Source: Gammaproteobacteria bacterium Ga0077554
GTDB taxonomy: Bacteria > Pseudomonadota > Gammaproteobacteria > Ga0077554 > Ga007554
DNA length: 64,000 nucleotides
NCBI GenBank assembly: GCA_001464585.1
Contig: LNFF01000040.1
Span: 133,267 to 197,266 of the forward strand
Direction: 5' to 3'
Shown: positions 3,845 through 22,252 of the stretch, piece by piece
Layout of the letters: each line of letters opens with the position of its first letter
Numbering within the stretch: the first letter of the stretch is position 1
Translations under genes and position numbers: made by a program
Notes under the pieces: generated by a model
Seen by the model: only the letters and a program-made list of their open reading frames with translations
The model's database searches: none
What the model was told of the DNA's origin: nothing

Positions 3845-4023
3845 GTGTGGCCCTCACAAGGGGTAAGAGCAAAATTTTTAGCAAACCATGCCGCGACAGG
3901 GAGGGTAACTGCATCACCCATGGCTTTGTAACCATCGCTGTAACTTTCCGGCATTTTGTAAGTTCCCTGCACACCCATCAGGCGCGCGCCTTCGCACATG
4001 GTCAGTACGTTTCGAATCGGCAC
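3841..4023 (-). pseudogene. C-terminal fragment of a C5-cytosine DNA methyltransferase
   Basis: This 60-codon fragment, opening with GTG, matches the extreme C-terminus of Dcm-type enzymes: an IRNVLT...EGARLMGV stretch (motif IX region) followed by SDGYKAMGDAVTLPVAAWFA (motif X). Everything upstream that should precede it (motif VIII and the target recognition domain) is missing. In its place, two bases away, ends the AT-rich gene at 4026-4775. The N-terminal half of the same enzyme type lies on the far side of that gene. Separate translation as a functional subunit, as in naturally split methyltransferases, is possible but unlikely without a recognition domain. Confidence 0.75.
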
Positions 4024-4025
4024 GA

Positions 4026-4775: not shown

Positions 4776-4784
4776 GTAAGAATG

Positions 4785-5219
4785 CTAATAACCACGCTGC
4801 GTCAACGCTTGATGCAGCGTGCGATAGTGACTTCCGTTAGCCGCAGAAACCAAGCCGACAACATTTTCAGCAACAAGGACGGGCGGGCGCGATGGCATTT
4901 CATCAATGATGCGCAGCCACTCCCACACAAGGCGGCTTCTGGTTCCGTGTATGCCCTCGGTCAGGCCAGCAAGCGAAAGGTCTTGGCAAGGGAAGGAAGC
5001 CCAGGCAAGCGAAGCATTTGGAAGCGCCGCACCTTCAACATCGGCAATCGAGCCTAGATGAAAATGCTTGGCTCCGTGGTTAGCCGTATAGACAGCGGCT
5101 TTCTTGTCGCAAATATCGTTGGCCCAAGCGACGCGGAAGTGATCCTTCAAACCCTGTGCCACCAGACCGCTGCCAGCGAAGAACTCCAGGAAAGAATGAC
5201 GCGAGCCAGTTGCCAGCAT
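4785..5219 (-). pseudogene. N-terminal fragment of a C5-cytosine DNA methyltransferase
   Basis: With the ATG at 5219 the fragment has 144 residues. It contains the AdoMet-binding motif I (FLEFFAGSGLV, residues 10-20), the catalytic motif IV (SFPCQD, catalytic cysteine 78) and motif VI (AENV, 117-120). It ends at a TAG just where the chain should run on to motif VIII and the target recognition domain. The frame is open upstream to 5384, with ATGs at 5318 and 5384. The added residues resemble translated repeat DNA, so the shorter start is preferred, although no good ribosome-binding site distinguishes them. Together with 3841-4023 it accounts for both ends of one enzyme. Confidence 0.75.
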
Positions 5220-5390
5220 CGTTGTTTTCTGTAGGGGAGAGCGTAGCGAGGGGGGCGAGACCCGCCGCGCCTCACGCGTTGATGCGTTTTCCGATTCGAA
5301 TATGTGTATTTGTTTCATTTTTTTATTATAACTGCCCCGGTAATAGCTGACCAGATAAAGAGCGTTGAGAATTTCGACGCCCAATTAAGG

Positions 5391-6095
5391 CTATGGATCT
5401 TGTGTCGGCGTCACGCGAATGGGCGCGGGCTGTTTTGGATTGGGCATATCAACATCCGGACTATTACGATCCGTCCATTCCTTACCTTTACGCGCCATAA
5501 ATTCGGCTTCGTGTTTAGGCAATGGGCCGCGCGCCATACTGCCTTCCCACTCCCACATCGCAGCACGGGCTTTGCGTACATACGGATCTTCCGGTGGCGA
5601 CAAATGCACATAAGTGCGCATGGCGCCTAATGCACCCTGCAAATCACCTTGCTGTTCCAGAGAAATTCCCAAGCCCCAATAAGCATTGGCCTGATAAGGC
5701 CGCAACGTGGTTGCTTTATCAAAAAAGCTCACGGCTTCCTGATACCGTTCAAGCCCCAGCAACGCGTAACCCATGTTGACATGCGCATCCACCAGGTTGG
5801 GCGAAAGTTGCAAGACACGCTGCAATGCGGTAATGGCATGTTCATATTCCTTGGCATGCAGCATCACCACCGCTTGCTCAAAGCGGGTTGCTATTTGCGC
5901 CATGCGCGCTTGCTGTGAATGGCCTTTGGGATCTTTGGCGGGATCAATCTCGACCTGCGGCGCGGGCGGCGGTGGCACAAAGACTGGATTGCGCGTTACA
6001 CCCACCAGCATCGCCACCATGCCCAGCACTAACAGAAGTGAAATAAATGAGGTGGCGGTGGATGATGTGTCTGACGGCGTGAGTACTGTGCTCAT
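5391..6095 (-). CDS. membrane-anchored TPR protein at the end of the cytochrome operon
   Basis: The 234-residue protein has one N-terminal transmembrane helix (about residues 15-33), a proline-rich linker and three or so tetratricopeptide repeats (about 65-165; for example AHVNMGYALLGLERYQEAVS). The C-terminal 60 residues are proline- and charge-rich. Its ATG overlaps the stop of ccsA in an ATGA, so it is translationally coupled to the cytochrome c assembly genes. TPR proteins of this type help in apocytochrome handling (compare CcmH/NrfG in System I). By position it is a candidate apocytochrome chaperone for this locus; that role is inferred. Confidence 0.75.
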   Translation of the reverse strand: MSTVLTPSDTSSTATSFISLLLVLGMVAMLVGVTRNPVFVPPPPAPQVEIDPAKDPKGHSQQARMAQIATRFEQAVVMLHAKEYEHAITALQRVLQLSPNLVDAHVNMGYALLGLERYQEAVSFFDKATTLRPYQANAYWGLGISLEQQGDLQGALGAMRTYVHLSPPEDPYVRKARAAMWEWEGSMARGPLPKHEAEFMARKGKEWTDRNSPDVDMPNPKQPAPIRVTPTQDP

Positions 6096-6985
6096 ATCAC
6101 ACCCTTATGTGCGGCTGTGCTATAAAACGGCGTGCCAAAATAGGTGATGAAAGCAAACACAAACACACCGATAATGGCAATCGCTCCGACACGAATCGGA
6201 ATGCGATAGGTGAGCCGCGCATGGATGCTGGCGCCCAACATCAGCCAGTTAAGAAAAGAAGACGTCTCCAGCGCATCCCATGCCCAGTAACGTCCCCAGG
6301 CATCCTGCGCCCACACCGCGCCTGCAGTGAGCATCAAGCTATGAAAAATAAATGCCAGCAACATGAAACGCCACGCCAGCGCGTCCAGCACGGCATCGGC
6401 GGGCACATGGCGAAACCACGCTGCAAATCGTTGCGTATTACGCAGTAAAATCACCCCTGCCAATCCGGTGCCCACCAGGCAGAATGCCAGGAAAAATTTT
6501 CCCAAACCAACGTGTGCCCATAACCAGTCATTGTGATAAGTAGGCGGCAGTGCGGTATCAACCGGCTGTAATGCCAATACCCAACCCCCCAGCACCCACA
6601 TCATGGGCAACGCCACTACGGCGCTGGGGCGCAACAACGGCACGCGCCAATACACCACGGCGAACACCAGGCCCAGGCTCCACAACTGGCTCATCAGCAA
6701 TTCAAATAAATTGACGAACGGGCCATGGCCGAGGCGCATCCAGCGTTCGGCAATCGCCACGGTAAGCAACGCCACACCCAGCACCACCATGAGCAATACA
6801 AATTTTTCATGGGCGCGTGGCGACGCCTGCGTCATGGTGCCAACGGTAGTGGCGCCAATGCGGATGCGCATCATCCCCATCACCGCAATCAGCGTGGCCA
6901 GCACGTAGGCGGTCAACCCCGCCCACAGCCAGGGCAACTCTGTGGCATAGCCCATCACACTCAACACACTTGTCGCTTCATTCAT
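6092..6985 (-). CDS. ccsA: CcsA/ResC-type heme handling protein, System II cytochrome c assembly
   Basis: A 297-residue integral membrane protein with about eight predicted helices. The signature WAQDAWGRYWAWD (about residues 226-238) is the tryptophan-rich WWD motif that presents heme to apocytochromes in System II (CcsBA/ResBC). Conserved histidines are present near HVGLGKFF and HSLMLTAG. With ResB it moves heme across the inner membrane and ligates it to CXXCH cysteines. It overlaps resB upstream and the TPR gene downstream by 4 bases each. Many gammaproteobacteria rely on System I (Ccm), so a System II pair embedded in a cytochrome operon suggests the locus carries its own maturation machinery. 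Confidence 0.9.
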   Translation of the reverse strand: MNEATSVLSVMGYATELPWLWAGLTAYVLATLIAVMGMMRIRIGATTVGTMTQASPRAHEKFVLLMVVLGVALLTVAIAERWMRLGHGPFVNLFELLMSQLWSLGLVFAVVYWRVPLLRPSAVVALPMMWVLGGWVLALQPVDTALPPTYHNDWLWAHVGLGKFFLAFCLVGTGLAGVILLRNTQRFAAWFRHVPADAVLDALAWRFMLLAFIFHSLMLTAGAVWAQDAWGRYWAWDALETSSFLNWLMLGASIHARLTYRIPIRVGAIAIIGVFVFAFITYFGTPFYSTAAHKGVI

Positions 6986-8028
6986 ACCGACCTCCCGGCA
7001 GCCGTGTCTGGGGATGATGCCCGTGGCACTTCCGGCGCATCTTTCACCCGCGCCGGGGCAATCTGCAAACTCGCCCCGGACTTACGCCAGAAATGTGTCC
7101 CCAAACCCAATACTGCCATGATTGCTGCACCAAATAACCAATGTAAGGTAGGGTCATAAAATACTTTATATCCCATCCACGTCGTCAACCGTTCATAACG
7201 TAACACACCACCGGGCACATGCACGCTTTGACCCGGTTCGAGTTCAACTCGCCGATCGTCTACATTCACCACCAGCACCCCGGTAGCGGTTTTGCCGTCC
7301 AGCACCCACGCCGCATCTTCGCGCAAGCCGGTCTTTAACCGCAACCAGAATTTAATTTCCTTGCCGCCCCCTTTTTCATTGGGTGGCGTCCAACTGCTGT
7401 CCTGCTTATACTCAAACAGTGGATAAGACGGCATGTGGATTGTACCACTCAGCGCTTCGCCACCCCCATCAGGGGTCCAGGTCAGCACCGGGGCGAAGCC
7501 TTTGTTAAAGGTAGTGTAAAAGCGATAACCTTCCAGTATCAGCGGGCGATCATCGCCGACCACTTTAGTCTGCCAGCCTTGCCTGTCGTCGGGCAGGAGC
7601 ACCGTGCTATGGGTCAGGCCGCGCACCATGCCAGGCGAGTAGTCCACCGTAAACGATCCCTGCACAAAAGCCAGTTGCTCCAGCGCCCCGGAATGCCACG
7701 GGCCTTTCGCCATATGCGTCAGATCAGAGGGCGAAAAAGCAGTGCCTTCAGTGATTTCCAGTTGCGCGTCAAGGTGGGTCAAGCGGCCGATACCGGCGAG
7801 GACAATGATGGCGAGCAGACCGAGGTGGAACACCAGCAGCCCACCCCGGCGATTGATGCGGGGATTGGTCGCAATGGCGGCCAACAGATTAACCGCCAGA
7901 AAAGCAAGGGGAGCCACCAGCACCCATACCGGAGTATCGACCGGATTATCATAGCTAAGCGCCGCGCCGATGGCCAGCAGGAGCATTCCCACCAGAGCCA
8001 ACCGTATGGAACCCAGCGCGCGGATCAT
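6982..8028 (-). CDS. resB: ResB/Ccs1-like cytochrome c assembly protein
   Basis: The 348-residue protein has three N-terminal transmembrane helices (about 9-25, 34-52, 66-83), a large periplasmic domain and a last helix near residue 300, as in ResB/Ccs1. Motifs include RRGGLLVFHLGLLAI and, ahead of the last helix, GYKVFYDPTLHWLFGA. ResB partners CcsA to hold and deliver heme to apocytochromes on the periplasmic side. Its ATG overlaps the TGA of the 11-heme cytochrome gene by 4 bases, so synthesis of the assembly factor is tied to that of its presumed main client. The C-terminal 45 residues are a proline/alanine-rich tail. Confidence 0.88.
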   Translation of the reverse strand: MIRALGSIRLALVGMLLLAIGAALSYDNPVDTPVWVLVAPLAFLAVNLLAAIATNPRINRRGGLLVFHLGLLAIIVLAGIGRLTHLDAQLEITEGTAFSPSDLTHMAKGPWHSGALEQLAFVQGSFTVDYSPGMVRGLTHSTVLLPDDRQGWQTKVVGDDRPLILEGYRFYTTFNKGFAPVLTWTPDGGGEALSGTIHMPSYPLFEYKQDSSWTPPNEKGGGKEIKFWLRLKTGLREDAAWVLDGKTATGVLVVNVDDRRVELEPGQSVHVPGGVLRYERLTTWMGYKVFYDPTLHWLFGAAIMAVLGLGTHFWRKSGASLQIAPARVKDAPEVPRASSPDTAAGRSV

Positions 8029-10676
8029 GGGAGGTTACTGCACGTCTCACCGCCAAAACCGTTCATCCAGCTAATGCCCCGATTGCCATTGCCTGGCATT
8101 CCGGCTGACCCACAGTTTTGCGGGGTCCATTCCCCGCTACGCCTGAAATTCACGACCTTGAGCGTAGCGCCAAGGTAGTAAGGGCCATTGTAATAACGCG
8201 CGGTCGTGTTATTACGCACCTGGGTACCCGAAGGCAACCCGCCCTCCAGGCCTACGTCATTGAGATTGACGAGAAAATTTTTGTTCTTCCAGCCATGTGG
8301 CACGGCAATGTGGCAATAGGTGCAACGGAAATTCTGCACCACCTGCGCATGGCCGGTATGGAGATTGGTTTGCTGCACATTCAAGCAACCGACGCCCGAC
8401 CCGTCTGTCGGGTTGCGCGCGAAACCGCTCTTCAAGGTCTGACTGGCACTGATAAAGCCTGGCCCAAACTTCTTGCCATAAGAATCATAGTTATGACACT
8501 TGAAGCATAGATGATCCTGCTTGTTCTCACCGGTCTGGTCATCCCACGGGCCTTTCAGCAAAAAGTCATTGTTGGAGCCATGCGGACCCCACGCATTCCC
8601 TTGCTCGCCGCCGTCTGGCACCACCGTACCCGGCGCGGTGGTCGATCCATGACAATCGGTACAGTACATGGTCTGGATACCCACGCCGGCATTGAAGGGT
8701 TCGCGCCAGATATTCGGGCTATCGACCTTGCGGATGTCAATGGTGCGCCCCGTGTCCTTTAACGCGGGATGCCAGGAACGGTGATTATCATTCTGGAAGT
8801 CAACAGTATACGCCTGACCCGGCGGCGTTCCGACAAAAGCGCCACTACGTGTCGGCGAAGTACCCTCACCTTTGTGCTCATCGGGCGACTGATATTCCAT
8901 GCCCTGATTAGTGTATTGAATCATCGCGTTGGTGCCCGGCGGCGTACCGCCGGCAAATGACCCCAACATTGCAGGCTGATCAAACCCATAATTAGAATGG
9001 CACTTCATGCACACCTGATATTCACGCGTCACATAGGGCGCGCTGACATCGGTGCTGCCGCCCACGCCCGGATCGCCGCGCTTCACGGTAAACACCTGCG
9101 GCTCACTGCCAAATTCGGTACTCGGCCAGCCGCTCGGCTCCACTCCGGTAATGCCACGTAACACACCGGACGCGAGGTTGGTGTGATGGCGCTCTGGCGT
9201 TGCCGCAATCTGCGCTGCGGTGTGGTTGTGGGTTCCCTCGGAATCAGGAATGCTGGTATCTGCATTAAAGCGGCGGTTCTTCGTCACACGATGCGGGTTA
9301 TGGCAATCCGTACACTCGGCATGGCGATTCTGCAGGCCACCGCCTTCACCGTGTTTATTGACGCGACTGGCCTTGCCCAGATTGGCAGGCGACTCCAGGA
9401 AGTCTTTACCGGCCTGTGGCTCGCCCGCTGAGCCAATATCGTGCCGCTCACGCCCGGCGGGCTGGTCACGGCTGGCCATCGGCATGTGCCGCGCCATGGT
9501 GGTAAAGTCGGTTTTGATGTCCGGCACTTCAAAACCCGGCTTCACCCCTTGCCCTTGCAGCGTACCGCCGTCTGTCGAGTGGCAGGCATAGCAGGTTTCT
9601 TCAACAGCAGGATTACCCCCTTGCTTGAAGCGCGCACCATCTGCGCCAACCAACGTAGGGCCATCGCTACCTTCACGCAACAGACGCCGCGAGCCTTGTA
9701 CGGTATGCGGATCATGGCAATTCAAACACGCCGCCTGCCACACCGGCATATCTTTGGGGAATTCACGTAATTTGGCAGCCGTATCAGAATAACGTTCATT
9801 GCCTACAGCCGGGTGCGCATGCGCCGAACCTACCCAGCCCGCTTTGTCGTGACAACCGAGGCAGATCAGATCATCTTTTTCATTAAATACCTTGTCCGTT
9901 GGCGGCTGCTGCTGAAAGCGGTTGACGCGCAGGAACTTGATGCTTTCGCCCGAGGTATCGCGCAGGTGCGGATCATGACATGTGACACACTCCACTTTGT
10001 TATCTTCCAGCGGCAGGGTAGGTTTGACACCGGGTGTACGGGTACCCAGATGCGACACCGTCATCGGGTCATACAATTCGCCGTCACGCATGGCCTGCGC
10101 ACTGTCATAGGTAAAAGAAATCGGGTGATCATTGCTTAAATCAGTACCCAGACGGCGCGTAAAGCCAGTGTGCTGACCGCGCCCTTCGGGAATCGTGTCA
10201 TTCACGCCAATGCCGGGGCCGGTAAAATCAATCTTGGGGTTTTCAACACGATTCAACACGTTCACCGAGCCCAACGCCAGCGTACCGTCATGGCATGACA
10301 GGCATAGTCGTGATTTACCACCGGGCTGGCCCAGATCAGTCGCATCAAGCGACCCGGAGGTATAGGGAATATAGGTTGCGCCCGACAGCTTGCGGTTCCA
10401 CAGTGGAGTCTGCGGAGCCAGGGTCGCGCCGTGCGGGGTATGGCAGAACGCGCACACTTGCGATTCGCTTACGGCGCTGGCATCGCGCTTGGTGCCATCG
10501 GGCAAGATCGGCACGATAGCAGCAGAAAAATTATGTTTGGTATTGCGGATATCTGAAATGCGCTCGGCCTGCACGCCCACGGGAACACTTACCGCCAAGA
10601 CGGCAGCGACGAGCAGCAGCAGGGTAACCACCCAACGTGGCTTTAAGGAACCTCTGATTAATGAGCGTGCTGTCAT
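8025..10676 (-). CDS. 11-heme c-type cytochrome with OmcE-like N-terminal module
   Basis: An 883-residue exported protein with eleven CXXCH motifs, starting at residues 75, 125, 230, 272, 317, 362, 455, 556, 672, 724 and 785. Residues about 14-37 form a signal-peptide core. The first four heme sites and surrounding residues (CAFCHTPHGA, PLWNR, CLSCHDGT, SNDHP, CVTCHDPH, FLRV) parallel the tetraheme cytochrome at 19679-20536 almost motif for motif; seven further hemes follow. The C-terminus has CTYCHIAVPHGWKNK and two late cysteines. It is probably an outer-membrane or extracellular electron carrier. The apparent start codon and first 12 residues lie inside a mobile palindromic element (10641-10781). 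Confidence 0.9.
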   Translation of the reverse strand: MTARSLIRGSLKPRWVVTLLLLVAAVLAVSVPVGVQAERISDIRNTKHNFSAAIVPILPDGTKRDASAVSESQVCAFCHTPHGATLAPQTPLWNRKLSGATYIPYTSGSLDATDLGQPGGKSRLCLSCHDGTLALGSVNVLNRVENPKIDFTGPGIGVNDTIPEGRGQHTGFTRRLGTDLSNDHPISFTYDSAQAMRDGELYDPMTVSHLGTRTPGVKPTLPLEDNKVECVTCHDPHLRDTSGESIKFLRVNRFQQQPPTDKVFNEKDDLICLGCHDKAGWVGSAHAHPAVGNERYSDTAAKLREFPKDMPVWQAACLNCHDPHTVQGSRRLLREGSDGPTLVGADGARFKQGGNPAVEETCYACHSTDGGTLQGQGVKPGFEVPDIKTDFTTMARHMPMASRDQPAGRERHDIGSAGEPQAGKDFLESPANLGKASRVNKHGEGGGLQNRHAECTDCHNPHRVTKNRRFNADTSIPDSEGTHNHTAAQIAATPERHHTNLASGVLRGITGVEPSGWPSTEFGSEPQVFTVKRGDPGVGGSTDVSAPYVTREYQVCMKCHSNYGFDQPAMLGSFAGGTPPGTNAMIQYTNQGMEYQSPDEHKGEGTSPTRSGAFVGTPPGQAYTVDFQNDNHRSWHPALKDTGRTIDIRKVDSPNIWREPFNAGVGIQTMYCTDCHGSTTAPGTVVPDGGEQGNAWGPHGSNNDFLLKGPWDDQTGENKQDHLCFKCHNYDSYGKKFGPGFISASQTLKSGFARNPTDGSGVGCLNVQQTNLHTGHAQVVQNFRCTYCHIAVPHGWKNKNFLVNLNDVGLEGGLPSGTQVRNNTTARYYNGPYYLGATLKVVNFRRSGEWTPQNCGSAGMPGNGNRGISWMNGFGGETCSNLP

Positions 10677-10781
10677 TTCGACCGCAGGGAGAAATCTTTA
10701 TGTTGTTGAACGGCTTCAATATCCGAGACCCAGGATTTCTCGCTTCGCTCGAAATGACAACTAATCAGAGCTTCCTTTAAT
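10641..10781. mobile_element. MITE-like element with long terminal inverted repeats
   Basis: About 140 bases whose two ends are inverted copies: TTTAAGGAACCTCTGATTA on the left and the complement of TTAAAGGAAGCTCTGATTA on the right. Each is followed inward by TGTCATTTCGA, the core of the dispersed repeat seen elsewhere in the window. TTAA occurs at both outer ends and may be the target site. It contains no coding capacity. It separates the downstream NHL lipoprotein from the 11-heme cytochrome and supplies that gene's ATG. Confidence 0.6.
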
Positions 10782-10794
10782 AACCCCCGCACCT

Positions 10795-11964
10795 TCATAT
10801 CCCCTCTCCCAGATACTCAAACACTACAACACGTCCATTAAACATATCAGCCACGTAAATGCGACCACGCTGATCGCTCCACACGCCAGCCGGTAAAAAA
10901 AACTGGCCGATGCCGCTACCCCCGCCACCCATCGGCAACAAGAGTTCACCCTGCGAATTGAATACTAGCAAATGATCGTAGTAAGATTCTACTACATAGA
11001 TGTTTCCGGCGGCATCTACCGCAACTCCTTTCGGTCGCACCAAATCACCCAGAAACAGCCCGCGCCGACCAAACACCTGCAATACCTTGGCTTCCAGCCC
11101 GGCGGGCCGGGCAGTAGCAGGAGCAGCAGACCCTGGAACCTGCTCAACCACCCCCAGCACCTGAATGCGTGCATTGAGGGTATCTGCAACGTACAGTTTA
11201 CCATCGGCAAACGCAAGATGTGTCGGTGAATTGAATTCGCCGGGCGCTTCGCTGCGCTGGCCGCTGCCAAAGGTGGCCAGCACATTACCGGCATCATCAA
11301 ATACATTAATCTGATGCAGATGGGTGTCAGCCACGTAAACACGGCCATTTACGGCATCCCGCGCCAGACCGGTGGGGTGTTTGAGCACGCCCTTGCCAAA
11401 GCTCCCGACCGGCACTCCCGCGCTATTGAGGCGAAACACCGCGCCCAACCCTGCGTCTACAACCAGCACTTCACCGTTCGCCCCCACTGCAATACCAATC
11501 GGTATTTCAAAGCGGGTATTTTCTGCGGCCATCTCCCACACCAGGAGCTTGCCGGCTTTTTCGTCAAACACATACACCGCTTGACGACTGACATCGGTGA
11601 TATAAATCCTGCCGTCGCCATCCACTGCGCCAGCCTGCGGTCGCTGCAGGATAACTGCCGGGCTTTTTTCCGAGAGCAGCCCCGCCAGCCACTTCAGCGC
11701 CTTGATACCCGCCTCGGCAACGCCACCGCTGTCACGATGAATATTCTGTTCCCCGGTCAGCTCACCTACATAACGGTAACGCGGAATTTCGGGCGCCGCA
11801 GGCCACACTACTGGTTGCGCGCCCGGCGTTATGGAGGCTGCTTCGTAACGCAGGGTCGTCTTCGTCTGGGCACAACCGGACAGCCCGCCCAGCAACAGGA
11901 CGGCCAACAGGGCAATGGCCAGCCCCATCACAGCCCCATCATAACGCGCGCTCACAAACACCAT
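10795..11964 (-). CDS. NHL-repeat beta-propeller lipoprotein (second copy)
   Basis: With the ATG at 11964 the protein has 389 residues. A hydrophobic signal ends in a lipobox (GGLSGC), predicting a lipid-anchored periplasmic or outer-membrane protein. The mature part is a six-bladed NHL propeller: repeats such as GRIYITDVSRQAVYVFD, GRVYVADTHLHQINVFD, GKLYVADTLNARIQVLG and GRIYVADMFNGRVVVFE. An upstream ATG at 12021 would add 19 residues but overlaps the preceding gene. The start at 11964 follows the stop of the upstream NHL gene after one base, so translation is probably coupled. NHL propellers usually bind proteins or surfaces; a scaffold for the cytochrome complex is inferred. Confidence 0.8.
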   Translation of the reverse strand: MVFVSARYDGAVMGLAIALLAVLLLGGLSGCAQTKTTLRYEAASITPGAQPVVWPAAPEIPRYRYVGELTGEQNIHRDSGGVAEAGIKALKWLAGLLSEKSPAVILQRPQAGAVDGDGRIYITDVSRQAVYVFDEKAGKLLVWEMAAENTRFEIPIGIAVGANGEVLVVDAGLGAVFRLNSAGVPVGSFGKGVLKHPTGLARDAVNGRVYVADTHLHQINVFDDAGNVLATFGSGQRSEAPGEFNSPTHLAFADGKLYVADTLNARIQVLGVVEQVPGSAAPATARPAGLEAKVLQVFGRRGLFLGDLVRPKGVAVDAAGNIYVVESYYDHLLVFNSQGELLLPMGGGGSGIGQFFLPAGVWSDQRGRIYVADMFNGRVVVFEYLGEGI

Positions 11965-11965
11965 T

Positions 11966-13048
11966 CTAATTCTTGCCGCCAGCAGCCCCGGACATGACAC
12001 GCAACACCTGTACCCGCCCATTCAGACTGTCCGCCACATACAGGAAGCCCTCATCAACCCATAAATCGGTGATATAGCGAAACTCGCCCAAGCCTGAGCC
12101 TGTCTTCCCGATACGCCCCAGGAGGCGGCCTTCGCCGTAAATTTTGACGGTGTTATCAATAAAATCACTGACGTACACCCGACCCTCGCCATCCACCGCA
12201 ATGGCGGTAGGAAACGTCACATCCCCCTGCGGCATGGAATAACGGTATCTGCCATCATCCGCCAGCACCTGAATACGCTGGCCAAAGCGTGCCGTGACAT
12301 AAAAGCCATCCACCCCGGACGCCATCGCGGTAATATTCAGGAACTGACCAGGGTCACTACCACGGCCCCCGCCAGACGCCACCAGATTGCCAAAGCTGTC
12401 AAACACCAGAATATGGTCATACACCCCGTCCGCCACCAGCACGCGGCCGCTGGATTCTTCCACGCTCACTGCCACCGGCCGGGCCAGATTCATGGCATTG
12501 CTATAGGTTCTGATCAAACGGCCACGCCGATCAAACTGCAAAACGCGGCTGCCCATGGGATCCGCGATATAGAATGATAAATCACGCGCCACATAAATAT
12601 CGGAGGCCTCACCCGCCAGCACACCGCGCAAACTCATCACCACATCAAGACTGCGCATGGTGCGATTATATTTAAACAACAACTCCTGGCCGGCATCAAT
12701 CACAAATAGGTCATTGCCGCGCGCCGCCACCGCCACCGGACGAATGAACTGCGCATACCGAACGCCAGTGAGTGCATTGCCCTGTGGGCCACCACGAACG
12801 ATTTCCAGCGGCAGCAGCAAGTCGGAAGACGCGTCCTGCCCCACAAGGGTTGAAGTCGCTTCCGCTCTTCCCTGTGCGGCGGAATCATTAACGGGACGTG
12901 GCGCAGAATCAGCAGGCGCTGCCAGAGGGGTATCTTGCGGCACAGGCAGGGGAGGATTTTTACCCAGCAGGGAACACCCCCCCAACAGGAGGGTGATCGC
13001 CAGAACAATTAACGGAAACCGGCAGTTTGCCGAGGGACTGAATGACAT
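11966..13048 (-). CDS. NHL-repeat beta-propeller lipoprotein (first copy)
   Basis: A 360-residue lipoprotein from the ATG at 13048. The signal ends in LLGGC, followed by a proline/alanine-rich linker and an NHL propeller with blades such as NDLFVIDAGQELLFKYNR, RDLSFYIADPMGSRVLQFD, GRVYVSDFIDNTVKIYG and FLYVADSLNGRVQVL. The frame is open to 13102, but the shorter start gives a cleaner signal peptide. Even so it overlaps the end of the upstream triheme cytochrome gene by about 40 bases. It is a diverged paralogue of the next gene; the two may form a heteromeric scaffold. Confidence 0.8.
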   Translation of the reverse strand: MSFSPSANCRFPLIVLAITLLLGGCSLLGKNPPLPVPQDTPLAAPADSAPRPVNDSAAQGRAEATSTLVGQDASSDLLLPLEIVRGGPQGNALTGVRYAQFIRPVAVAARGNDLFVIDAGQELLFKYNRTMRSLDVVMSLRGVLAGEASDIYVARDLSFYIADPMGSRVLQFDRRGRLIRTYSNAMNLARPVAVSVEESSGRVLVADGVYDHILVFDSFGNLVASGGGRGSDPGQFLNITAMASGVDGFYVTARFGQRIQVLADDGRYRYSMPQGDVTFPTAIAVDGEGRVYVSDFIDNTVKIYGEGRLLGRIGKTGSGLGEFRYITDLWVDEGFLYVADSLNGRVQVLRVMSGAAGGKN

Positions 13049-13632
13049 CGGCCACAATTCATGGTTGGCGCAAAAGCGACTTTGCCGTGGCACACGCCAC
13101 AATAATTACCCTGGATAATAGCTGCCATATTCACCGGATTCGCGCCTTGCTGCGGCAGGAAAATCAGCGGGTGGCAATTGGCGCACGTCAACCATTCCGT
13201 ATGCTGACGGTGCGGAAAACGCACATTAGGCATCGAGCCGGTATTTTTGAAAATGATGTCAAAATCGACAGGGAACATCTGTTCTTCGCCATTCAACCCC
13301 TTGCGCGGGTCGATCAACCCTTGATCCAGGGCCTGCACCCAATCGGTCAACCCCTTGGCATCGCGCGGAAAACTCGCTAAGGCTTCCGCGGGCTCCTGGA
13401 ACACACTGATCGCCGGATTGGTGGGATCACGAATACCATCTTCGGCCAGCGGCACGATCTCACCCTGCGTCTGAAAATGCCGGCCCTTCGACCAGATCGG
13501 CTCGGCGGCCATCACGTCGCTGGTGATCGCCGCGCCTACTATCCAGCATAGCACGGCCATCAACCACAAATCCCCCCTGCCCCCCTTTTTCAAAGGGGGG
13601 GGCGTCGTGCATAAACAGCTTGAGCGTTTCAT
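13009..13632 (-). CDS. triheme c7-type cytochrome with repeat-invaded signal peptide
   Basis: From the ATG at 13632 the protein has 207 residues. It has three heme sites, CANCH, CGVCH and CGRCH, all near the C-terminus, preceded by FPHRQHTEWL, whose histidines are typical axial ligands of triheme c7 domains. The front half (VPLAEDGIRDP...DWVQALDQG) matches the lipoprotein at 15255-15998, so the two are paralogues. The N-terminus is odd: codons for PPPLKKGGRGDL come from a GGGGGATTT-type palindromic repeat inserted between a basic start (MKRSS) and the hydrophobic core. A second repeat upstream supplies GGGGGGATTTG just before the ATG. Translation could instead begin at 13560. Confidence 0.82.
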   Translation of the reverse strand: MKRSSCLCTTPPPLKKGGRGDLWLMAVLCWIVGAAITSDVMAAEPIWSKGRHFQTQGEIVPLAEDGIRDPTNPAISVFQEPAEALASFPRDAKGLTDWVQALDQGLIDPRKGLNGEEQMFPVDFDIIFKNTGSMPNVRFPHRQHTEWLTCANCHPLIFLPQQGANPVNMAAIIQGNYCGVCHGKVAFAPTMNCGRCHSVPRQTAGFR

Positions 13633-13767
13633 CAAATCCCCCCTGAACCCCCCTTTTTCAAAAGGGGGGTTCATTGTGTAAATACGATTAGACCGCCACC
13701 CCGTCCCCCTGTTCACCCCCTTTGAAAAAGGGGGTCGCGCATAGCGCGGGGGGATTTAGGGGGATTT
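13568..13767. repeat. cluster of three GGGGGATTT-type palindromic repeats
   Basis: Three imperfect palindromes of about 35-65 bases lie at 13568-13602, 13634-13670 and 13703-13767. Each has AAATCCCCCCT, a run of C, TTTTTCAAA and a run of G. The first two fall within the open frame at the 5' end of the triheme cytochrome gene; the third lies between it and the upstream cupredoxin gene. They would form strong hairpins in RNA. Confidence 0.75.
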
Positions 13768-15106
13768 AATTCACGCCCGCAATCATTAACGCACGCTGCA
13801 AATACGAGGTCGCTTCCTGCAAGGCGCTGATCGCTGCCGCGTGGTCACCTTTACCTGCAAGCTGCGCCGCTTCAGTAACTAGCCCTTTACTCTTTTGCTC
13901 TAATTCCGCCATTTTATCAACGGTCATGGCCGGCGGCTTTTTCTGCTCCAGCGCCAGGGGGATCAACTCTTCATAGCTTTTATAGTGCGCCACTTCATAT
14001 TCATATTCAGCCGCCGGGGTAGCAAAGTTTTTGTCGTACACCACCGTCTCATTATCCAGCAATGCGCCCAGGGCACGAGTCACCATGCGCTGCGCATTGG
14101 CCAACAATTTGTTGGCCTCTTCGTAACGTCCGGCATCGGCATGCCCTTTCGCCTGGCTTATTAAATCCTGGAATTTTTTCTCATCCAGTGCCGCAGCAGA
14201 TTTTTTCTTATCCGTCAGACGCTCGCTATGCTGCTTGTAAGATGATTCAAATGTCTTGGTCGCATCCAGCAATTCCGTATAGCGAAACTTGGGGTCAAGA
14301 CCCGACTCCGGCGCATCGCTGGGCACCAGACGCGCTGCCGCTGTTACCAGACGAATGGACTCGTCGACTTCATCCTGCGCTTTGGCAACATTACCCCCAC
14401 CCAACACACTGCGCGCTGACTCCAGGCGTGTGCGCGCATTGGTCAGCATTTCTTTGGCCTGCGCATTGCTGCTGGCCGCTATACGCTGCGCGCCTTTGGA
14501 TGAGTTCATGAGCATGTTGGCATAGTCAATTTTCTGCTTGACCTGCGCTTCCGCTACCGGGGGATGCTCCACTGCAGGATGGCCTTCTGCCGCTGCTGCA
14601 CCCGGCGCGACAGCAGGCGCTTCGTCCAGCGCCGCCGCCTTGCCCTTGTCTACCACTTTGAGCATACCACCCATGCTTCTGTGATTACGGCACTGGTAAT
14701 ACACCAGATCTGGCGTGGTCGCTGAAGGCGTAAATGTCACTGCGCCGCGAAAGGTAAACTGGCCATCCACGCCTTCCGTCACCGTGCTCCCGCCCTGACC
14801 TACGGCGCTGGTAGAAAAATAAAAATCGTGCTGCGGGCCAGTATCAACATTAAAAGTATAGTCTACCCCGCGCGTCAACACCAACGGCTTGCCTTGCACG
14901 CCATCCACCACCAGACCGATTTTATGGCCCTGGCCAAAAAATGGATGGGTTTTGTCTTTGGTTGCAGAGGTTATCGCGAACATCCGCTTGTCTGCGCCTT
15001 TGTCTGTAGCCGTCGCGGCGAGTGCTGCACCATGAATTCCGGCAAAACCTACAGAAGCTATCTGCAGTAAAAAATAAACGTATCGGCCTGTGAGCTTCAT
15101 AATCAT
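13766..15106 (-). CDS. exported cupredoxin-like domain fused to helical repeats
   Basis: A 446-residue protein with a signal peptide (about 1-30). Residues about 45-152 look like a cupredoxin: DTGPQHDFYF supplies a histidine and YYQCRNHRSMGGM supplies cysteine, histidine and methionine, the type-1 copper set. An alanine/proline linker leads into about 270 residues of helical, possibly coiled-coil sequence with regularly repeated motifs (ANMLMNSSKGAQRI, SQAKGHADAGRYEEANKLLA, AQLAGKGDHAAAISALQ). The gene lies between triheme cytochrome genes. A copper electron carrier or an assembly sensor is plausible but unproven. The ligand spacing should be checked by structure prediction. Confidence 0.65.
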   Translation of the reverse strand: MIMKLTGRYVYFLLQIASVGFAGIHGAALAATATDKGADKRMFAITSATKDKTHPFFGQGHKIGLVVDGVQGKPLVLTRGVDYTFNVDTGPQHDFYFSTSAVGQGGSTVTEGVDGQFTFRGAVTFTPSATTPDLVYYQCRNHRSMGGMLKVVDKGKAAALDEAPAVAPGAAAAEGHPAVEHPPVAEAQVKQKIDYANMLMNSSKGAQRIAASSNAQAKEMLTNARTRLESARSVLGGGNVAKAQDEVDESIRLVTAAARLVPSDAPESGLDPKFRYTELLDATKTFESSYKQHSERLTDKKKSAAALDEKKFQDLISQAKGHADAGRYEEANKLLANAQRMVTRALGALLDNETVVYDKNFATPAAEYEYEVAHYKSYEELIPLALEQKKPPAMTVDKMAELEQKSKGLVTEAAQLAGKGDHAAAISALQEATSYLQRALMIAGVN

Positions 15107-15206
15107 TCCCTAATAAAAAGTAGCGTTACGCAAACATCAAACTGCTTTAGTCCCGCTCTCCACAATTCCGGGGCTTATTCGAAATGGCTTGCCCCTGATT
15201 ATTAAT

Positions 15207-15245
15207 GCACCCCCTCCTCTGCCGCATGCGGCGAAAAGGGGATGC
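15207..15245 (-). terminator. hairpin after the triheme lipoprotein gene
   Basis: A GC-rich imperfect stem (GCATCCCC against GGGGGTGC) around a GCCGCATGCGGC palindrome, just downstream of the gene at 15255. It has no long T tract, so partial termination, pausing or mRNA-end protection inside the operon is as likely as full termination. Confidence 0.35.
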
Positions 15246-15254
15246 ATGATCATT

Positions 15255-15998
15255 TTACTTCCATGGATTTTTGAGTGTTACTTCGCTCAATGGCGGCTTC
15301 CAGTCATCCGCCTTCGGCTTGGAGTGACACTTGCGGCATGACTTGGTGGTAATCGGAAACGCTACCTTGCCATGACACACACCACATTTTTGCCCCAGCA
15401 AAATGGCGGACATGTTGATCTGGTTTGCGCCTTTTTGTGGAATAAAAATGGCCGGGTGGCAGTTTGAGCAAAACAGCCATTCAGTATGCTGGCGATGCGG
15501 GAACACCACATCCGGTACCGATGCTTTTACCGGGCGCACGATATCCAGATCCATCACAAACGGCTCGGCATCAGGATCTTCCTTTTCCCAGCGTGGACGC
15601 ACTTTTTTATCATCCAGGGTTTTCACCCAATCCACACGGTTACCAAACTCGGTAGGCGGCAAACCCTCAAATGCAGGCTTGGGCGCGGCGAGAATGTGCG
15701 TGGCTTCATTTTGCGGGTCACGCAAACCATCTTCGGCCGGCGGCAAATGGACACCCTTGGGCTTCTTCAAGTTGCGGTTGAAGCTGTTGATGTCATCCAC
15801 TTGTGCAATATGGATCACCTGCACATCCGACTGGGCCATTTCATCAACGGCTTTGTAATCCGGCGCGTAGGATAAATCCATGACCGGGATCGAACCATCG
15901 GGACGTGCCGTCACCTGCGGCTGTGCACTGCATGCAGACCCGGCCAGAAACAGTGCCAGGGCGCAACTCATATAGAGCGTTTTTTTATGCCAATTCAT
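15255..15998 (-). CDS. triheme c7-type cytochrome lipoprotein
   Basis: A 247-residue protein with a lipoprotein signal (LFLAGSAC, cysteine about residue 23). After a central region with LPPAEDGLRDP and DWVKTLDDKK come FPHRQHTEWLF and three heme sites, CSNCH, CGVCH and CRKCH, spread over the last 75 residues. It is a paralogue of the protein at 13009-13632, sharing almost the same heme-domain wording (IPQKGANQINMSAIL versus LPQQGANPVNMAAII). Lipid anchoring would place it on a membrane face, where it could pass electrons to the beta-barrel conduit. Its coding neighbours on both sides run in the same direction. Confidence 0.88.
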   Translation of the reverse strand: MNWHKKTLYMSCALALFLAGSACSAQPQVTARPDGSIPVMDLSYAPDYKAVDEMAQSDVQVIHIAQVDDINSFNRNLKKPKGVHLPPAEDGLRDPQNEATHILAAPKPAFEGLPPTEFGNRVDWVKTLDDKKVRPRWEKEDPDAEPFVMDLDIVRPVKASVPDVVFPHRQHTEWLFCSNCHPAIFIPQKGANQINMSAILLGQKCGVCHGKVAFPITTKSCRKCHSKPKADDWKPPLSEVTLKNPWK

Positions 15999-16028
15999 AT
16001 GTTTTCCTCGTATTCATTTATTTTTCCA

Positions 16029-16487
16029 TTATTTTTTCGGCGCAGGGGCGGGAGCCGCCGCAGGCGCTAACAATGGCTGATGCGGCGGAGCCACCAGGGT
16101 CTGTGCCGTGCTGCCGTGGATATGGGTGGGAGTTCCCGGTACGCCAGAATGGCACATACCGCAGTTTTCCACCGACCAGGCAATTTCACCGTTATGACAG
16201 GCGCCGCAGAATTTGCCGTCAATGATTTTCGCCATGGTAATCTTGTTGCCGCCCGCTTTGAACTGGAAGCCCAGGTCCGCATGGCACACTTTACAGCGGA
16301 AACGCACACGGTGAAACCAGTGCGAAAATACGGCCGGACGCATCCCTGCCGCATCCGCATAGTTATTGATAACCACATCTCCGTATTCAGCTTGCGCTGG
16401 CACGGGGGCTATCAGCATGGCTGCCCAGGCAGCGGCACCCAACGCCAGCGCCCTCCACGTAATACGACCTTTCATTTTAGGTAACAT
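16029..16487 (-). CDS. small periplasmic triheme c7-type cytochrome
   Basis: The ATG at 16487 is preceded by GGGGAG at good spacing and opens a clear signal peptide ending in VPAQA. The mature protein (about 120 residues) carries CKVCH, CGACH and CGMCH. It also has FSHWFHRVRFRC, giving extra axial-ligand histidines, as in c7/c3 proteins, and a proline/alanine-rich tail. An open frame extends 23 codons further upstream without a signal-like start. It is shorter than the two other triheme proteins of the locus and lacks their front domain, so it is the most likely soluble periplasmic shuttle. Confidence 0.88.
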   Translation of the reverse strand: MLPKMKGRITWRALALGAAAWAAMLIAPVPAQAEYGDVVINNYADAAGMRPAVFSHWFHRVRFRCKVCHADLGFQFKAGGNKITMAKIIDGKFCGACHNGEIAWSVENCGMCHSGVPGTPTHIHGSTAQTLVAPPHQPLLAPAAAPAPAPKK

Positions 16488-16581
16488 ACAGCACTCTCCC
16501 CTTGTTTTAAAATCACCCTTAAATCTATAAAGCATCCACAAAACCTTTAATACCAAACCTTAACCCCATCAACCCCCACGT

Positions 16582-16636
16582 TGTCATTTCGACCTTGGGA
16601 GAAATCTTAAGATTCCTCGCTGCACTCGGAATGACA
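16582..16636. repeat. dispersed TGTCATTTCGA palindromic repeat
   Basis: TGTCATTTCGACC at the left pairs with GGAATGACA at the right around GGGAGAAATCTTAAGATTCCTCGC. It lies between the beta-barrel gene and the small triheme cytochrome gene. Confidence 0.7.
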
Positions 16637-16684
16637 CAGATCGCGTAGGACAGGCCTCCTGACAATATTATCCAAATCACAACA

Positions 16685-18541
16685 TTAAAAACGCCGCGCA
16701 ATACGCGCCATCACCAAACTTGAATTTTGCCCATCAATCTGTATTAAACGCAAGCTTAAACTAGTATCCACCAAGCCAATTGTATAATCCAGTCGATTAT
16801 CCCACTCGGAACGGTCGATACCCTGCTCTACCGCCGCACGTGAGACAAACAGATTTGACAGAAAACGCAGGTTTGTCAAGCCAAATATATTGGAATGCTG
16901 ATAATCGACCCGTCCCGTCGCCGTCGCCACATCCGAGCCTATGCCTAATTGCGGGAACTCCTGGCGCACGTATTGCACTGTCAGGTTACCCGACAGAAAA
17001 CTCGAACGGTTCAGCGGTTGGACACGCAATACCTGAAAATTCACCAACTGTTGCTCATCTTCTGTATCGGTCACGGCGCGGGAGTCCGACACAGTCAATT
17101 GCACGGTAGAATTACCCCCGCCGCCCGCCACCTGGTTCCAGGACACAGTTCCCGTATGATCGAGGCGCGCATTGGCCGCGCCAATGCCACCAAATTGGCT
17201 CGCCGCCAGCGAGCCCTGGTGATCCTGATAGAGCGTCACGGATTCCTGGTTAATCCGGTAAGCGCCGTTAAGCGACTGCCCTACACTGACATTCAACGAA
17301 GAAATCTCGCCTAAAAACCAGGTTTTCTGCCCGTTATGCGACCACGTGGATGACACGGTCTGGCGCGCCCCATCTCCCCCTGACTGGTTATCCAGCGCGC
17401 CAGTTGCAAACCAGCGATAAGTAAAGCCAGATTTTTCATATAAATCGGACTGGTACAATACCCCGCCCTGCTGCCGCGTCAATTGCGTCTCGGAGCCGTT
17501 GCCCTGGGTATTGGTAAACGCCGCGCTGGCATCGAAACGCCATTTTCTGCTTAATTGATAAAAAAATCCACCGGAAGCGCTGATGGAGAGCGAATCACTC
17601 GACGCGGCGGGAGCTTCGCCTTGCAGATCGTAGACACGCAGTCCGCCACTCATCGACCACGGTCGGGCATCCGGGCGCCAGAAAAAGAAGCTGGAGGCCT
17701 GGGCTATATCCGTTGTGCTGCTGCCCGAGGTGGCGCTGGCGCTGGTGACCCGAAATGAGCGATCAAATGTGTAATAACTGGCTTTGTTGTCGACCCGAAA
17801 CGATGGTGAGGGCAGATAAAAATGGCTCAGGTCAAAAATAAGATTTTCATTGCGCAGCTTGGTCAATGAGTGCTCGGTAGTACCCTGGCTAAGTTTCATC
17901 AGCACGTTTTGCTTGCCACGCCGGATATCCGCCTCCGCGCCCATCAATGCATCATCATAACTGCCATCCCGCGCCGAACTCCAGTTCGATGCGTCATAGC
18001 GCAGCATAAATCGGTCGTTTTTATCATTCAGATAAGATTGCCTGAGTTCAAGACGCGTGGTTTCAAACTCAATGTCGGTAAATAGCACCGGGGCGCTGAC
18101 GATACGCGTAGAATCAATGCGGCTGTTACTCACCAGATAGCGCAAACCAAACGGCGTCTTGCTTTGCGGCAATACGTTGAGGTTAAACTCGCCCGTCACA
18201 ATGGTTGTCTCATTATCTTTAAGGCCAGCGTCAGCCGCACTGGGATCCGATGTATCGCCAAATTCGGTGCTGTCCTGGGCAAATGTCACGCCACCTTCTG
18301 TGGTCGCAAACCACGGTTGCCACACATACGAACTGGCGCGCACCGTGGCCAGCCACTGATGGCTGGTGGTGTCAGCATTATTGACGCCGCTTAACAAGCG
18401 GTAGCTGTAGCCAACGCTGCCGGATAGCTCGGCGGGTCCCAGCGACACGGCCATTACCCGCACTGGCCAGCTACCCAACGTCAGTAGCACCAACAGGGCT
18501 ATCGCGGCCTCAAATCGGAGGCTCATAGGCTCATGGCTCAT
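16685..18541 (-). CDS. outer-membrane beta-barrel of a porin-cytochrome conduit
   Basis: The protein has about 618 residues from the ATG at 18541 (an in-frame ATG lies at 18565). A signal peptide ends near RVMA. The rest is alternating amphipathic strands with many aromatic residues, short turns and the terminal phenylalanine (ARIARRF) needed for Bam-dependent insertion. Length and strand content suit a large barrel of the MtrB/PioB kind, roughly 20 or more strands, although I see no MtrB signature motif and no heme site. Flanked by multiheme cytochromes and a prolyl isomerase, it is best explained as the outer-membrane sleeve for electron transfer or cytochrome export. Confidence 0.72.
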   Translation of the reverse strand: MSHEPMSLRFEAAIALLVLLTLGSWPVRVMAVSLGPAELSGSVGYSYRLLSGVNNADTTSHQWLATVRASSYVWQPWFATTEGGVTFAQDSTEFGDTSDPSAADAGLKDNETTIVTGEFNLNVLPQSKTPFGLRYLVSNSRIDSTRIVSAPVLFTDIEFETTRLELRQSYLNDKNDRFMLRYDASNWSSARDGSYDDALMGAEADIRRGKQNVLMKLSQGTTEHSLTKLRNENLIFDLSHFYLPSPSFRVDNKASYYTFDRSFRVTSASATSGSSTTDIAQASSFFFWRPDARPWSMSGGLRVYDLQGEAPAASSDSLSISASGGFFYQLSRKWRFDASAAFTNTQGNGSETQLTRQQGGVLYQSDLYEKSGFTYRWFATGALDNQSGGDGARQTVSSTWSHNGQKTWFLGEISSLNVSVGQSLNGAYRINQESVTLYQDHQGSLAASQFGGIGAANARLDHTGTVSWNQVAGGGGNSTVQLTVSDSRAVTDTEDEQQLVNFQVLRVQPLNRSSFLSGNLTVQYVRQEFPQLGIGSDVATATGRVDYQHSNIFGLTNLRFLSNLFVSRAAVEQGIDRSEWDNRLDYTIGLVDTSLSLRLIQIDGQNSSLVMARIARRF

Positions 18542-18604
18542 ATACTTAAGACCCCACGTGGGCACTGCGCGCCCACCCTACGTGTTTCATTGCGGACAAA
18601 CCTT

Positions 18605-19636
18605 TTAGTTATTATCATTGATTAAAATCGGGGTACGTGCACGCAACCCCTCAAGCAAGCCCTTCCACGCCGCATCGGCCTGTTCACGCATCAATAATTC
18701 ACGGGCGCGCGGCTCGGCGGCGCTCAGCGCATTCAGCACTGGCGCAACGCGCTCATCCAGCCGCAACACGGCCACGCCCTGCAGCAACATCACTGGCGGC
18801 GAAACTTCACCTATCGCAACCATTTTATCCAGCGCCTGCTGCGCCTCAGCCGCCAGCATGCCGTGATGTATATACCCCAAATCGCCCCCTTTGGCCGCTG
18901 ACGTATCGGCAGAATGCAGGCGCGCCAGCGCGGCAAAATCTGCGCCGCCACGCAGTTTACCCACTAACTGGGTAGCCTCCTGCTCCGCCGCTTTCCATGT
19001 CTGCGCGGAGGCCGAAGGCTCCACTCTCAGCAGAATCAATGACACGCGCACCCGCTCGGGCGTAGTGAATTGCTCAGGGTGATCCTGATAATATTTGCGG
19101 ATCGCCGCCAAACCCGGCTCAACCACCTGCCGCACCTGCCCCTCCAACTGCGCCAGCGCGTTCTCCTCTTCCAGGCGGGCGCGCAGCACCGGCAAGGCGC
19201 GTTCCCGGTCAGCCCGCCATTCTGGTGTTCCCGCCAGACGCTGCTCAATCTGCGCGAGCTTGGCATCCACCGCCTCAACATCAGCCACTATGCGGCGGCG
19301 CTTGATTTCCTGCCGCAACAACACCCGGTCAACCAGGCGTTGCGTGACTTCACGGCGGTAAGCCGCCAACTGCTCCGGTTCCGGCGCGCCATGAAAAAAC
19401 CTGCGGCGCATGCCTTCATGCAGCGCCGCCTGAAATTCGTCGCGCGAAATGCTGTCTGCGCCTATTACAGCAAATGGCACCGCCTGGGCTGGCGCAGCAG
19501 ATGGTAACGGCGTGGTCGCTTCGACCACTGCACCAATCTCCGCAACGGCTTCCGCCCCCGCCGTTAACGTCGCCATCATTACTGTGAGCATTACCGCAAA
19601 CGCCCCCCGCCCGCCGCCAATCCTCTTGATTGTCAT
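18605..19636 (-). CDS. PpiC/SurA-like periplasmic peptidyl-prolyl isomerase
   Basis: A 343-residue protein with a hydrophobic export signal, a SurA-like N-terminal helical region (about 60-185) and a parvulin domain (about 190-295) marked by FAALARLHSADTSAAKGGDLGYI. Such enzymes fold outer-membrane barrels and secreted proteins in the periplasm. Its place between the beta-barrel and the tetraheme cytochrome suggests a dedicated folding factor. The start is unusual: the ATG and second codon (ATGACA) are the end of a dispersed TGTCATTTCGA repeat, and GGGGG of the same element supplies a possible ribosome-binding site. Confidence 0.88.
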   Translation of the reverse strand: MTIKRIGGGRGAFAVMLTVMMATLTAGAEAVAEIGAVVEATTPLPSAAPAQAVPFAVIGADSISRDEFQAALHEGMRRRFFHGAPEPEQLAAYRREVTQRLVDRVLLRQEIKRRRIVADVEAVDAKLAQIEQRLAGTPEWRADRERALPVLRARLEEENALAQLEGQVRQVVEPGLAAIRKYYQDHPEQFTTPERVRVSLILLRVEPSASAQTWKAAEQEATQLVGKLRGGADFAALARLHSADTSAAKGGDLGYIHHGMLAAEAQQALDKMVAIGEVSPPVMLLQGVAVLRLDERVAPVLNALSAAEPRARELLMREQADAAWKGLLEGLRARTPILINDNN

Positions 19637-19676
19637 TTCGACCCCCGCGAAAGCGGGGGGAGAAATCTTGCCTCCC
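19632..19676. repeat. dispersed repeat forming the 5' end of the ppiC-like gene
   Basis: TGTCATTTCGACC, then a CCCCCGCGAAAGCGGGGGG hairpin and AGAAATCTTGCC. Read on the minus strand, its GAAATGACA end provides the start codon of the isomerase gene. Confidence 0.6.
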
Positions 19677-19678
19677 CC

Positions 19679-20536
19679 CTATTTGGCATGGCAAGTCAAA
19701 CACACCACACTGCCCTTGGGATCCACACGCAAAAACGTAGGATTATAATCCACATGCGGATCATGGCACGAGGCGCATTCCACATAAGGCTGCGGCTCCC
19801 CGGCAAACCGGCCACGCGTACCGACGCGGGTATACAGCTTCATATCAGTTTTTTCAAAGGCCAGCGATCCTTCTACGGGCGTATTCACCCACCACACCCG
19901 CTCGGTGCCGACAATCGCAGTACTCGCCTGATTGAAGTCTTTGTCCGCGCCCGGGCCAGAGGGGTTTACCGATGAATAGCCACCACCCGCATACTGAATG
20001 CCCACCGGGTGGTCATTGGTCAAGTCTTTGCTGAGATTAGTGATGACATGCGGCGGAGCGATGCGACCACCCACCGTAGACGCCTGACCGCTCCAGCGGC
20101 CGGTGTTAAAGCCCTGCACAATCCGCCCCGATCCCGGCTCGTTGAGCAGCGAATCCATCGCCTGCGTGCCGTCATGGCACGACAGGCAGGCCAGCGACAC
20201 CGAGCCAATCTGCTCTACATGAGCGTCCAGCGTGGTGGTGCCCATTTGGTCATAGGTCTGGAAGCCATTGGGGTCGAGATTGCGGTTCCACAGCGGCACA
20301 GCGGCGGCTTCATTGGCGCCATGTGGAGTATGGCAAAACACGCAGATTTCACGCGTACCGCTGAACTGGCTGGCGGCGTTAATGCCGGTGCTGCCCAGAT
20401 TATGCTTGGTATTGAAAATGCCGGCGCGCGCACCGTTGGCGGTAAAAAGCAGCACGCCTCCTGCCGCCAATAATAGCAGCATAGCAATAATCAGATTTTT
20501 TCCGGAGGCCGCGTGCCCGCCGTATTTTATTGTCAT
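19679..20536 (-). CDS. OmcE-like tetraheme c-type cytochrome
   Basis: A 285-residue exported protein (signal core about 14-37) with four heme sites: CVFCH (65), CLSCH (117), CASCH (254) and CLTCH (279). The order NTKHNLGS, CVFCHTPHGA, PLWNRN, CLSCHDGT, NDHPVG, CASCHDPH, FLRV, VCLTCH at the very C-terminus resembles the tetraheme extracellular cytochromes typified by Geobacter OmcE, whose subunits stack into filaments. That assignment is from pattern memory and needs structural confirmation. It is the first gene of the locus. The second of two adjacent ATGs (20536) is better spaced from AGGGG than the first (20539). Confidence 0.82.
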   Translation of the reverse strand: MTIKYGGHAASGKNLIIAMLLLLAAGGVLLFTANGARAGIFNTKHNLGSTGINAASQFSGTREICVFCHTPHGANEAAAVPLWNRNLDPNGFQTYDQMGTTTLDAHVEQIGSVSLACLSCHDGTQAMDSLLNEPGSGRIVQGFNTGRWSGQASTVGGRIAPPHVITNLSKDLTNDHPVGIQYAGGGYSSVNPSGPGADKDFNQASTAIVGTERVWWVNTPVEGSLAFEKTDMKLYTRVGTRGRFAGEPQPYVECASCHDPHVDYNPTFLRVDPKGSVVCLTCHAK

Positions 20537-20668
20537 CATCCCACCCCTAGTCTTTAGCTTTCTAACACAAGGGGTTTTGCCCTGTCAATGAAAGTGCAGG
20601 AAAATGGAGCGGAAAATACAGGAGGCGGGGTATTCTTAATTAGCCCACACGCCGCCTAACGCCCTACT

Positions 20669-21997: not shown

Positions 21998-22038
21998 TTT
22001 CGTTTACTCCCTTAAAGTGTATGTTAGATATAAAAAGG

Positions 22039-22188: not shown

Positions 22189-22252
22189 AATATACCCCCG
22201 CTACACGGGGGCAGAGACAAAAGCGGGGATTGCCCCCGCCCTGTATCTTCTA

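Follow-up and report, generated by a model that had tools for sequence, protein, structure and literature searches.

A probable Uet operon in a gammaproteobacterium, with OmcE-like modules in its tetraheme and undecaheme cytochromes

The undecaheme electron transfer (Uet) system was first reported in cathode-oxidising Tenderiales, and its published set comprises the tetraheme cytochrome UetA, the peptidylprolyl isomerase UetB, the barrel UetC, the trihemes UetD, UetE and UetG, the NHL proteins UetH and UetI, and the undecaheme cytochrome UetJ (PMC10734462). In 'Candidatus (Ca.) Tenderia electrophaga', the trihemes Tel_16515, Tel_16520 and Tel_16530, whose expression on the cathode is among the highest, occur together with Tel_16525, a TPR gene, and Tel_16545, which encodes the undecaheme cytochrome (PMC5371394). 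UetJ or undecaheme clusters also appear in papers on the Leptothrix group and on a cave metagenome. The locus described here lies in the window, a 64,000-nucleotide stretch of contig LNFF01000040.1 (positions 133,267 to 197,266) from Gammaproteobacteria bacterium Ga0077554. Because it agrees in gene order, in heme counts and in types of protein with the Uet system of 'Ca. Tenderia electrophaga' and some Gallionella, it is very probably a Uet operon, consisting of UetA to UetJ together with ResB, CcsA and TPR genes, that would serve extracellular electron transfer as a porin-cytochrome conduit.

The locus occupies positions 5391-20539 of the window, with all 13 open reading frames (ORFs) on the minus strand, and contains 4 + 3 + 3 + 3 + 11 = 24 CXXCH sites; residue-shuffled versions of the operon proteins contain a mean of 0.064 and a maximum of 1. 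These counts agree with those given in the original prediction, made from the sequence before this analysis, and its named families (c7 trihemes, PpiC, NHL, ResB, CcsA and TPR) were recovered by Pfam and NCBIfam. The genes, in the direction of transcription, are as follows.

19679..20539, minus strand: UetA, tetraheme cytochrome of the OmcE family, 286 amino acids (aa), with a signal peptide followed by NTKHNLG and the C-terminus CLTCHAK; matches to 7TFS, 9YUQ and Paired_CXXCH (Pfam/NCBIfam).
18605..19636, minus strand: UetB, periplasmic PpiC/SurA-type peptidyl-prolyl isomerase, 343 aa; Pfam Rotamase and SurA_N_3.
16685..18565, minus strand: UetC, predicted outer-membrane beta-barrel, 626 aa.
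16029..16556, minus strand: UetD, triheme c7-type cytochrome; TIGR04257 'nanowire_3heme', 6.5e-19.
15255..15998, minus strand: UetE, triheme c7-type cytochrome with an N-terminal extension; TIGR04257, 3.7e-17.
13766..15106, minus strand: UetF, cupredoxin-like domain (H93, C139, H142, M145) followed by a helical/TPR-like region, identified from weak Pfam matches and ligand conservation.
13009..13716, minus strand: UetG, triheme c7-type cytochrome, called start too early; TIGR04257, 3.8e-19.
11966..13102, minus strand: UetH, NHL beta-propeller lipoprotein with an LLGGC lipobox, true start probably internal; Pfam NHL.
10795..12021, minus strand: UetI, NHL beta-propeller lipoprotein with an LSGC lipobox, true start probably internal; Pfam NHL.
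8025..10676, minus strand: UetJ, undecaheme cytochrome, 883 aa, an N-terminal OmcE-like tetraheme module of about 280 aa followed by 7 further hemes; Paired_CXXCH.
6982..8028, minus strand: ResB-like cytochrome c maturation protein (System II); Pfam ResB.
6092..6985, minus strand: CcsA/CcsB-like heme lyase (System II); Pfam Cytochrom_C_asm and TIGR03144 at 6e-32, below its curated cut-off.
5391..6095, minus strand: membrane-anchored TPR protein, a possible apocytochrome chaperone; Pfam TPR and weak TPR_CcmH_CycH.

Correspondence with the Uet system of Tenderiales and Gallionella runs through the whole series, from the tetraheme A, the isomerase B and the barrel C to the trihemes D, E and G, the TPR-type F, the NHL pair H and I, and the undecaheme J, all in the same order, and the spacing of the Tel_ tags is that expected for UetD, E, F, G and J of this operon. 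Three features refine the picture of this known system: an OmcE-like module in UetJ, a copper-like site in UetF and the maturation pair. In the Uet literature covered here, from which the founding mSphere 2022 description is excluded, no mention is made of a relation between UetA and OmcE, of the UetJ module, of the UetF site, or of linked ResB, CcsA and TPR genes. The original prediction, which had proposed a conduit equipped with folding and heme-attachment factors of its own, is well supported by the protein families, the gene order, the predicted barrel and the published expression of the Tenderia homologues, but it overlooked that Uet was an already described system. Its description of the locus as self-contained was too strong, because no recognised inner-membrane quinone-linked protein is encoded among the operon genes.

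UetA and the beginning of UetJ belong to the same sequence family as the filament-forming OmcE of Geobacter sulfurreducens (PDB 7TFS) and have its four CXXCH motifs and four distal histidines. UetA matches 7TFS at E = 3e-23 in a single-sequence search and at 5.9e-39 with a family profile, both halves being aligned, which bears out the OmcE-like tetraheme protein originally proposed; the profile also matches 9YUQ, a second deposited multiheme cytochrome, at about 1e-39. Across 48 orthologues, eight of the 11 UetA histidines are invariant, four within CXXCH and four distal (H46, H73, H177 and H262), providing enough ligands for four bis-histidine hemes. The N-terminal module of UetJ matches 7TFS at E = 1.2e-35 in a profile search, and the UetA profile, searched against its own genome, matched UetJ at E = 1.3e-29. 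The same eight ligand histidines are found in this module, with distal H48, H82, H184 and H237 invariant, and the heme histidines of UetJ are invariant at 11 of 11 positions in 49 aligned orthologues. UetJ as a whole has 12 invariant distal histidines for 11 hemes, but 98% of sequences have a further three, and counting spare ligands therefore settles nothing.

A third OmcE-like gene, encoding a pentaheme protein of 262 aa, occurs in the same genome (G000, contig 27, 31666-32424; L102:9663-10451), where it is paired with an NHL beta-propeller gene and oriented divergently to genes for multi-domain class I cytochromes c. This arrangement is repeated in a relative (G003, L104), and an additional OmcE-like paralogue of this kind is present in most Uet genomes of a class-wide sample of 369. 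At L102:3278-5728, two adjoining beta-propeller proteins with Reg_prop repeats stand beside genes for a single-heme cytochrome c and CcmH/CcmI.

UetC was modelled by AlphaFold2 with a mean predicted local distance difference test (pLDDT) score of 87, yielding 28 long strands and a C-terminal phenylalanine, in keeping with the large phenylalanine-terminated barrel of the original prediction and larger than the too-small barrel that would have counted against it. In this model UetC is a large barrel whose strand number is sufficient to hold a heme chain; MtrB has 26 strands. The UetC sequence has no Pfam match and no NCBIfam match up to E = 0.01, the MtrB/PioB family model TIGR03509 included, no significant PDB match by single sequence or by profile, and no match in a plasmid search. 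Searching the genome itself for MtrB/PioB matched nothing, but control searches were equally silent. MtrCAB, MtoAB and PioAB resemble the Uet locus in combining a large outer-membrane barrel with multiheme cytochromes. They differ from it in that no sequence relation was found between UetC and PDB entries, the operon is without an MtrA-like decaheme, and each heme of UetJ corresponds to about 80 residues. PCC3 and PCC4 of iron oxidisers likewise unite a porin with large multiheme cytochromes in the genomes of Fe(II) oxidisers; their inner-membrane protein has five helices and their cytochromes differ in heme number, whereas Uet carries System II genes, NHL lipoproteins, c7 proteins and a subunit of the OmcE family. 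Gene content ruled out both PCC3/PCC4 and the Mtr-type cluster of Methylobacter as identities for the locus.

In the proposed mechanism, the trihemes UetD, UetE and UetG would carry electrons over the periplasm, UetJ would traverse or cap the UetC barrel, and UetA would lie outside the cell as a head-to-tail polymer built on the OmcE-like module of UetJ. UetB may fold the barrel or UetA, while the NHL lipoproteins UetH and UetI would keep the complex at the outer membrane. Electrons would probably run inward, to supply CO2 fixation and an electron transport chain that is aerobic or microaerobic.

The chance that UetA polymerises into a filament is judged about even. Polymerisation is established in OmcE, whereas in UetA, which is longer and tied to a barrel operon, it is predicted from sequence. 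Somewhat short of an even chance is given to a Uet conduit without a filament, in which UetA would be a monomeric or short surface cytochrome serving soluble or mineral partners and its likeness to OmcE would reflect fold ancestry only. UetA exceeds OmcE by about 55 residues (286 vs 232), with the insertion falling mainly between hemes 2 and 3; published Uet work names it simply an extracellular tetraheme cytochrome (PMC10734462), and the Uet literature covered here reports no filament for any Uet host. Against this, every ligand histidine of OmcE, the N-terminal one included, has an invariant counterpart in UetA, and the last CXXCH of UetA directly precedes the C-terminus, as in OmcE and 9YUQ. 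Four bis-histidine hemes would also consume all four invariant distal histidines of UetA, and in OmcE one heme ligand is donated by the neighbouring subunit (PMC9473688). If UetA does form a filament, UetJ, which shares its ligand-bearing module, could join that filament to the conduit. In a tentative and rather doubtful extension of this proposal, UetJ would be a built-in nanowire base, its OmcE-like module replacing one filament subunit and sharing an inter-subunit heme ligand with UetA, and its seven further hemes leading into the 28-strand UetC. One operon would then hold filament, anchor, conduit and heme attachment, giving a direct answer to how a filament is wired to a cell; to our knowledge, the connection between filament and outer membrane in Geobacter is unsolved.

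Several points weigh against the reading of this locus as a Uet conduit bearing an anchored filament. The Uet identity is drawn from published descriptions, with Tenderia compared by description only, and the UetA filament and UetJ anchor are proposed from homology and conserved heme ligands, not from a complex. The AlphaFold2 model of UetJ is weak (mean pLDDT 64, with residues 30-186 below 50), and Foldseek with this weak model returned no useful fold match. For the UetC model, the best Foldseek match is MtrB (6r2q_B) at a low template modelling (TM) score of 0.35, and in VIA-align its comparison with MtrB, at Z 16.6 over 434 residues, is tied by TonB receptors; kinship of UetC to MtrB is at best putative. 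The physiological conduit role of cytochrome filaments is itself disputed (PMC11077965).

The direction of electron flow has been weighed in the same way. The genome encodes two RuBisCO-family genes, as well as one full-length COX1-family protein and two shorter ones, and the best studied Uet host grows on an O2-reducing cathode (PMC5371394); together, the RuBisCO-family and COX1-family genes and the Tenderia data favour electron uptake by a chemolithoautotroph, so that uptake is likelier than output. An outward conduit, which would use Fe(III), Mn(III/IV) or another external acceptor for its electrons when oxygen is limited, is considered unlikely in view of the same genes and the same host, even though an undecaheme cytochrome is reported in the Mn-reducing 'Ca. 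Dechloromonas occultata' (PMC13264449) and Mto/Mtr-like outer-membrane conduits may be reversible (PMC10734462). Very improbable is that cytochromes and barrel serve a role other than extracellular electron transfer, for instance in taking up metals, in handling copper or in secretion. The invariant copper-like site in UetF, the two general porins immediately upstream and the VIA-align tie between TonB receptors and MtrB speak for such a role. Against it, gamma-, beta- and alphaproteobacteria keep as a unit the cytochromes with eleven and with four hemes, the c7 proteins and the genes for heme attachment, and the second subtype mostly loses the copper site yet keeps the cytochromes.

Of seven other genomes sampled within the window's family, six contain UetC, and the one in which it was not found is 78% complete; among 48 genomes of other families, two contain it. 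In each of the eight regions fetched from relatives, the 13 genes are collinear, with barrel identity down to 38-41%, and the TPR gene ends the cluster. A scan of named genomes yielded 76 loci, mostly in Gammaproteobacteria, with many in Burkholderiales, Rhodocyclales and Gallionellaceae and few in Alphaproteobacteria, at most of which the gene order recurs in one of two subtypes. The gamma subtype outside the window's family accounts for 27 of them (L026-L052). In the second subtype (L053-L096), an extra upstream NHL gene, two UetF-like genes and an extra UetD-like gene, making a fourth triheme, are present, and UetE often has 4-6 hemes. Within the class-wide sample of 369 genomes, 40 carry UetC; in 39 of them, a strong UetA match (E <1e-75) lies within a few kilobases of it on that contig; 12 other genomes have OmcE-like matches, none at E <1e-75. 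Homologues without their partners would have told against the original prediction, and all 39 strong UetA orthologues adjoin UetC. The cluster is also carried by a biocathode gammaproteobacterium (Biocath_Gamma_008, L029), with 40% identity in UetC and 73% in UetA, and by isolate records of Ramlibacter, Herbaspirillum, Sedimenticola and Halomonas; Tenderia is not represented among the loci. A filament-type protein, a larger cytochrome with the same module and a barrel are encoded and conserved together, isolates included, and the question of filament wiring is therefore open to ordinary genetics and cryo-electron microscopy.

The two Uet subtypes are set apart by the putative type-1-copper-like site of UetF, whose residues H93, C139, H142 and M145 are present without exception in the 37 sequences of the gamma subtype, whereas most of the second subtype has lost them. 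In the gamma subtype, the cytochromes are far better conserved than the scaffold proteins, with mean identities of 82% for UetD (the most conserved), 73% for UetA, 69% for UetE, 67% for UetG and 63% for UetJ, compared with 45% for UetH, 44% for UetB, 43% for UetF and 38% for UetC. The System II pair of ResB and CcsA/CcsB homologues overlaps at 6092-8028, with both members above the Pfam cut-off. Since System I maturation genes (CcmF, CcmH and CcmI) are present on contig 27 of the same genome, the pair represents an additional heme-attachment system, probably dedicated to the operon.

From UetA to the TPR gene, the spacing is 42, 39, 128, 30, 148, 49, -94, -56, 118, -4, -4 and -4 base pairs (bp), so that intergenic distances are at most 148 bp and several neighbouring ORFs overlap; the -94 and -56 bp overlaps are probably artefacts of over-long start calls. 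Repeats of the CCCCTTTGAAAAAGGGG type upstream of UetG, at about 13590-13770, produce a false early start, and the true start of UetG lies downstream of 13716 because the called one falls inside this dispersed intergenic repeat. A 26-bp dispersed repeat between UetI and UetJ (10675-10760) has 83 genomic copies when up to 2 mismatches are allowed. Scans for promoters and terminators yielded site numbers no higher than in shuffles.

Upstream of the operon, at 20927-23329, lie two tandem Gram-negative porins (Porin_4) whose DNA is about 73% alike and whose 93-bp upstream segment is duplicated; many other Uet loci likewise have related porins upstream of UetA. Adjoining the operon on the other side, at 3218-5384, a C5 DNA methylase truncated at 199 aa, a protein with a NOV_C domain and one resembling type II restriction enzymes possibly represent a restriction-modification remnant.

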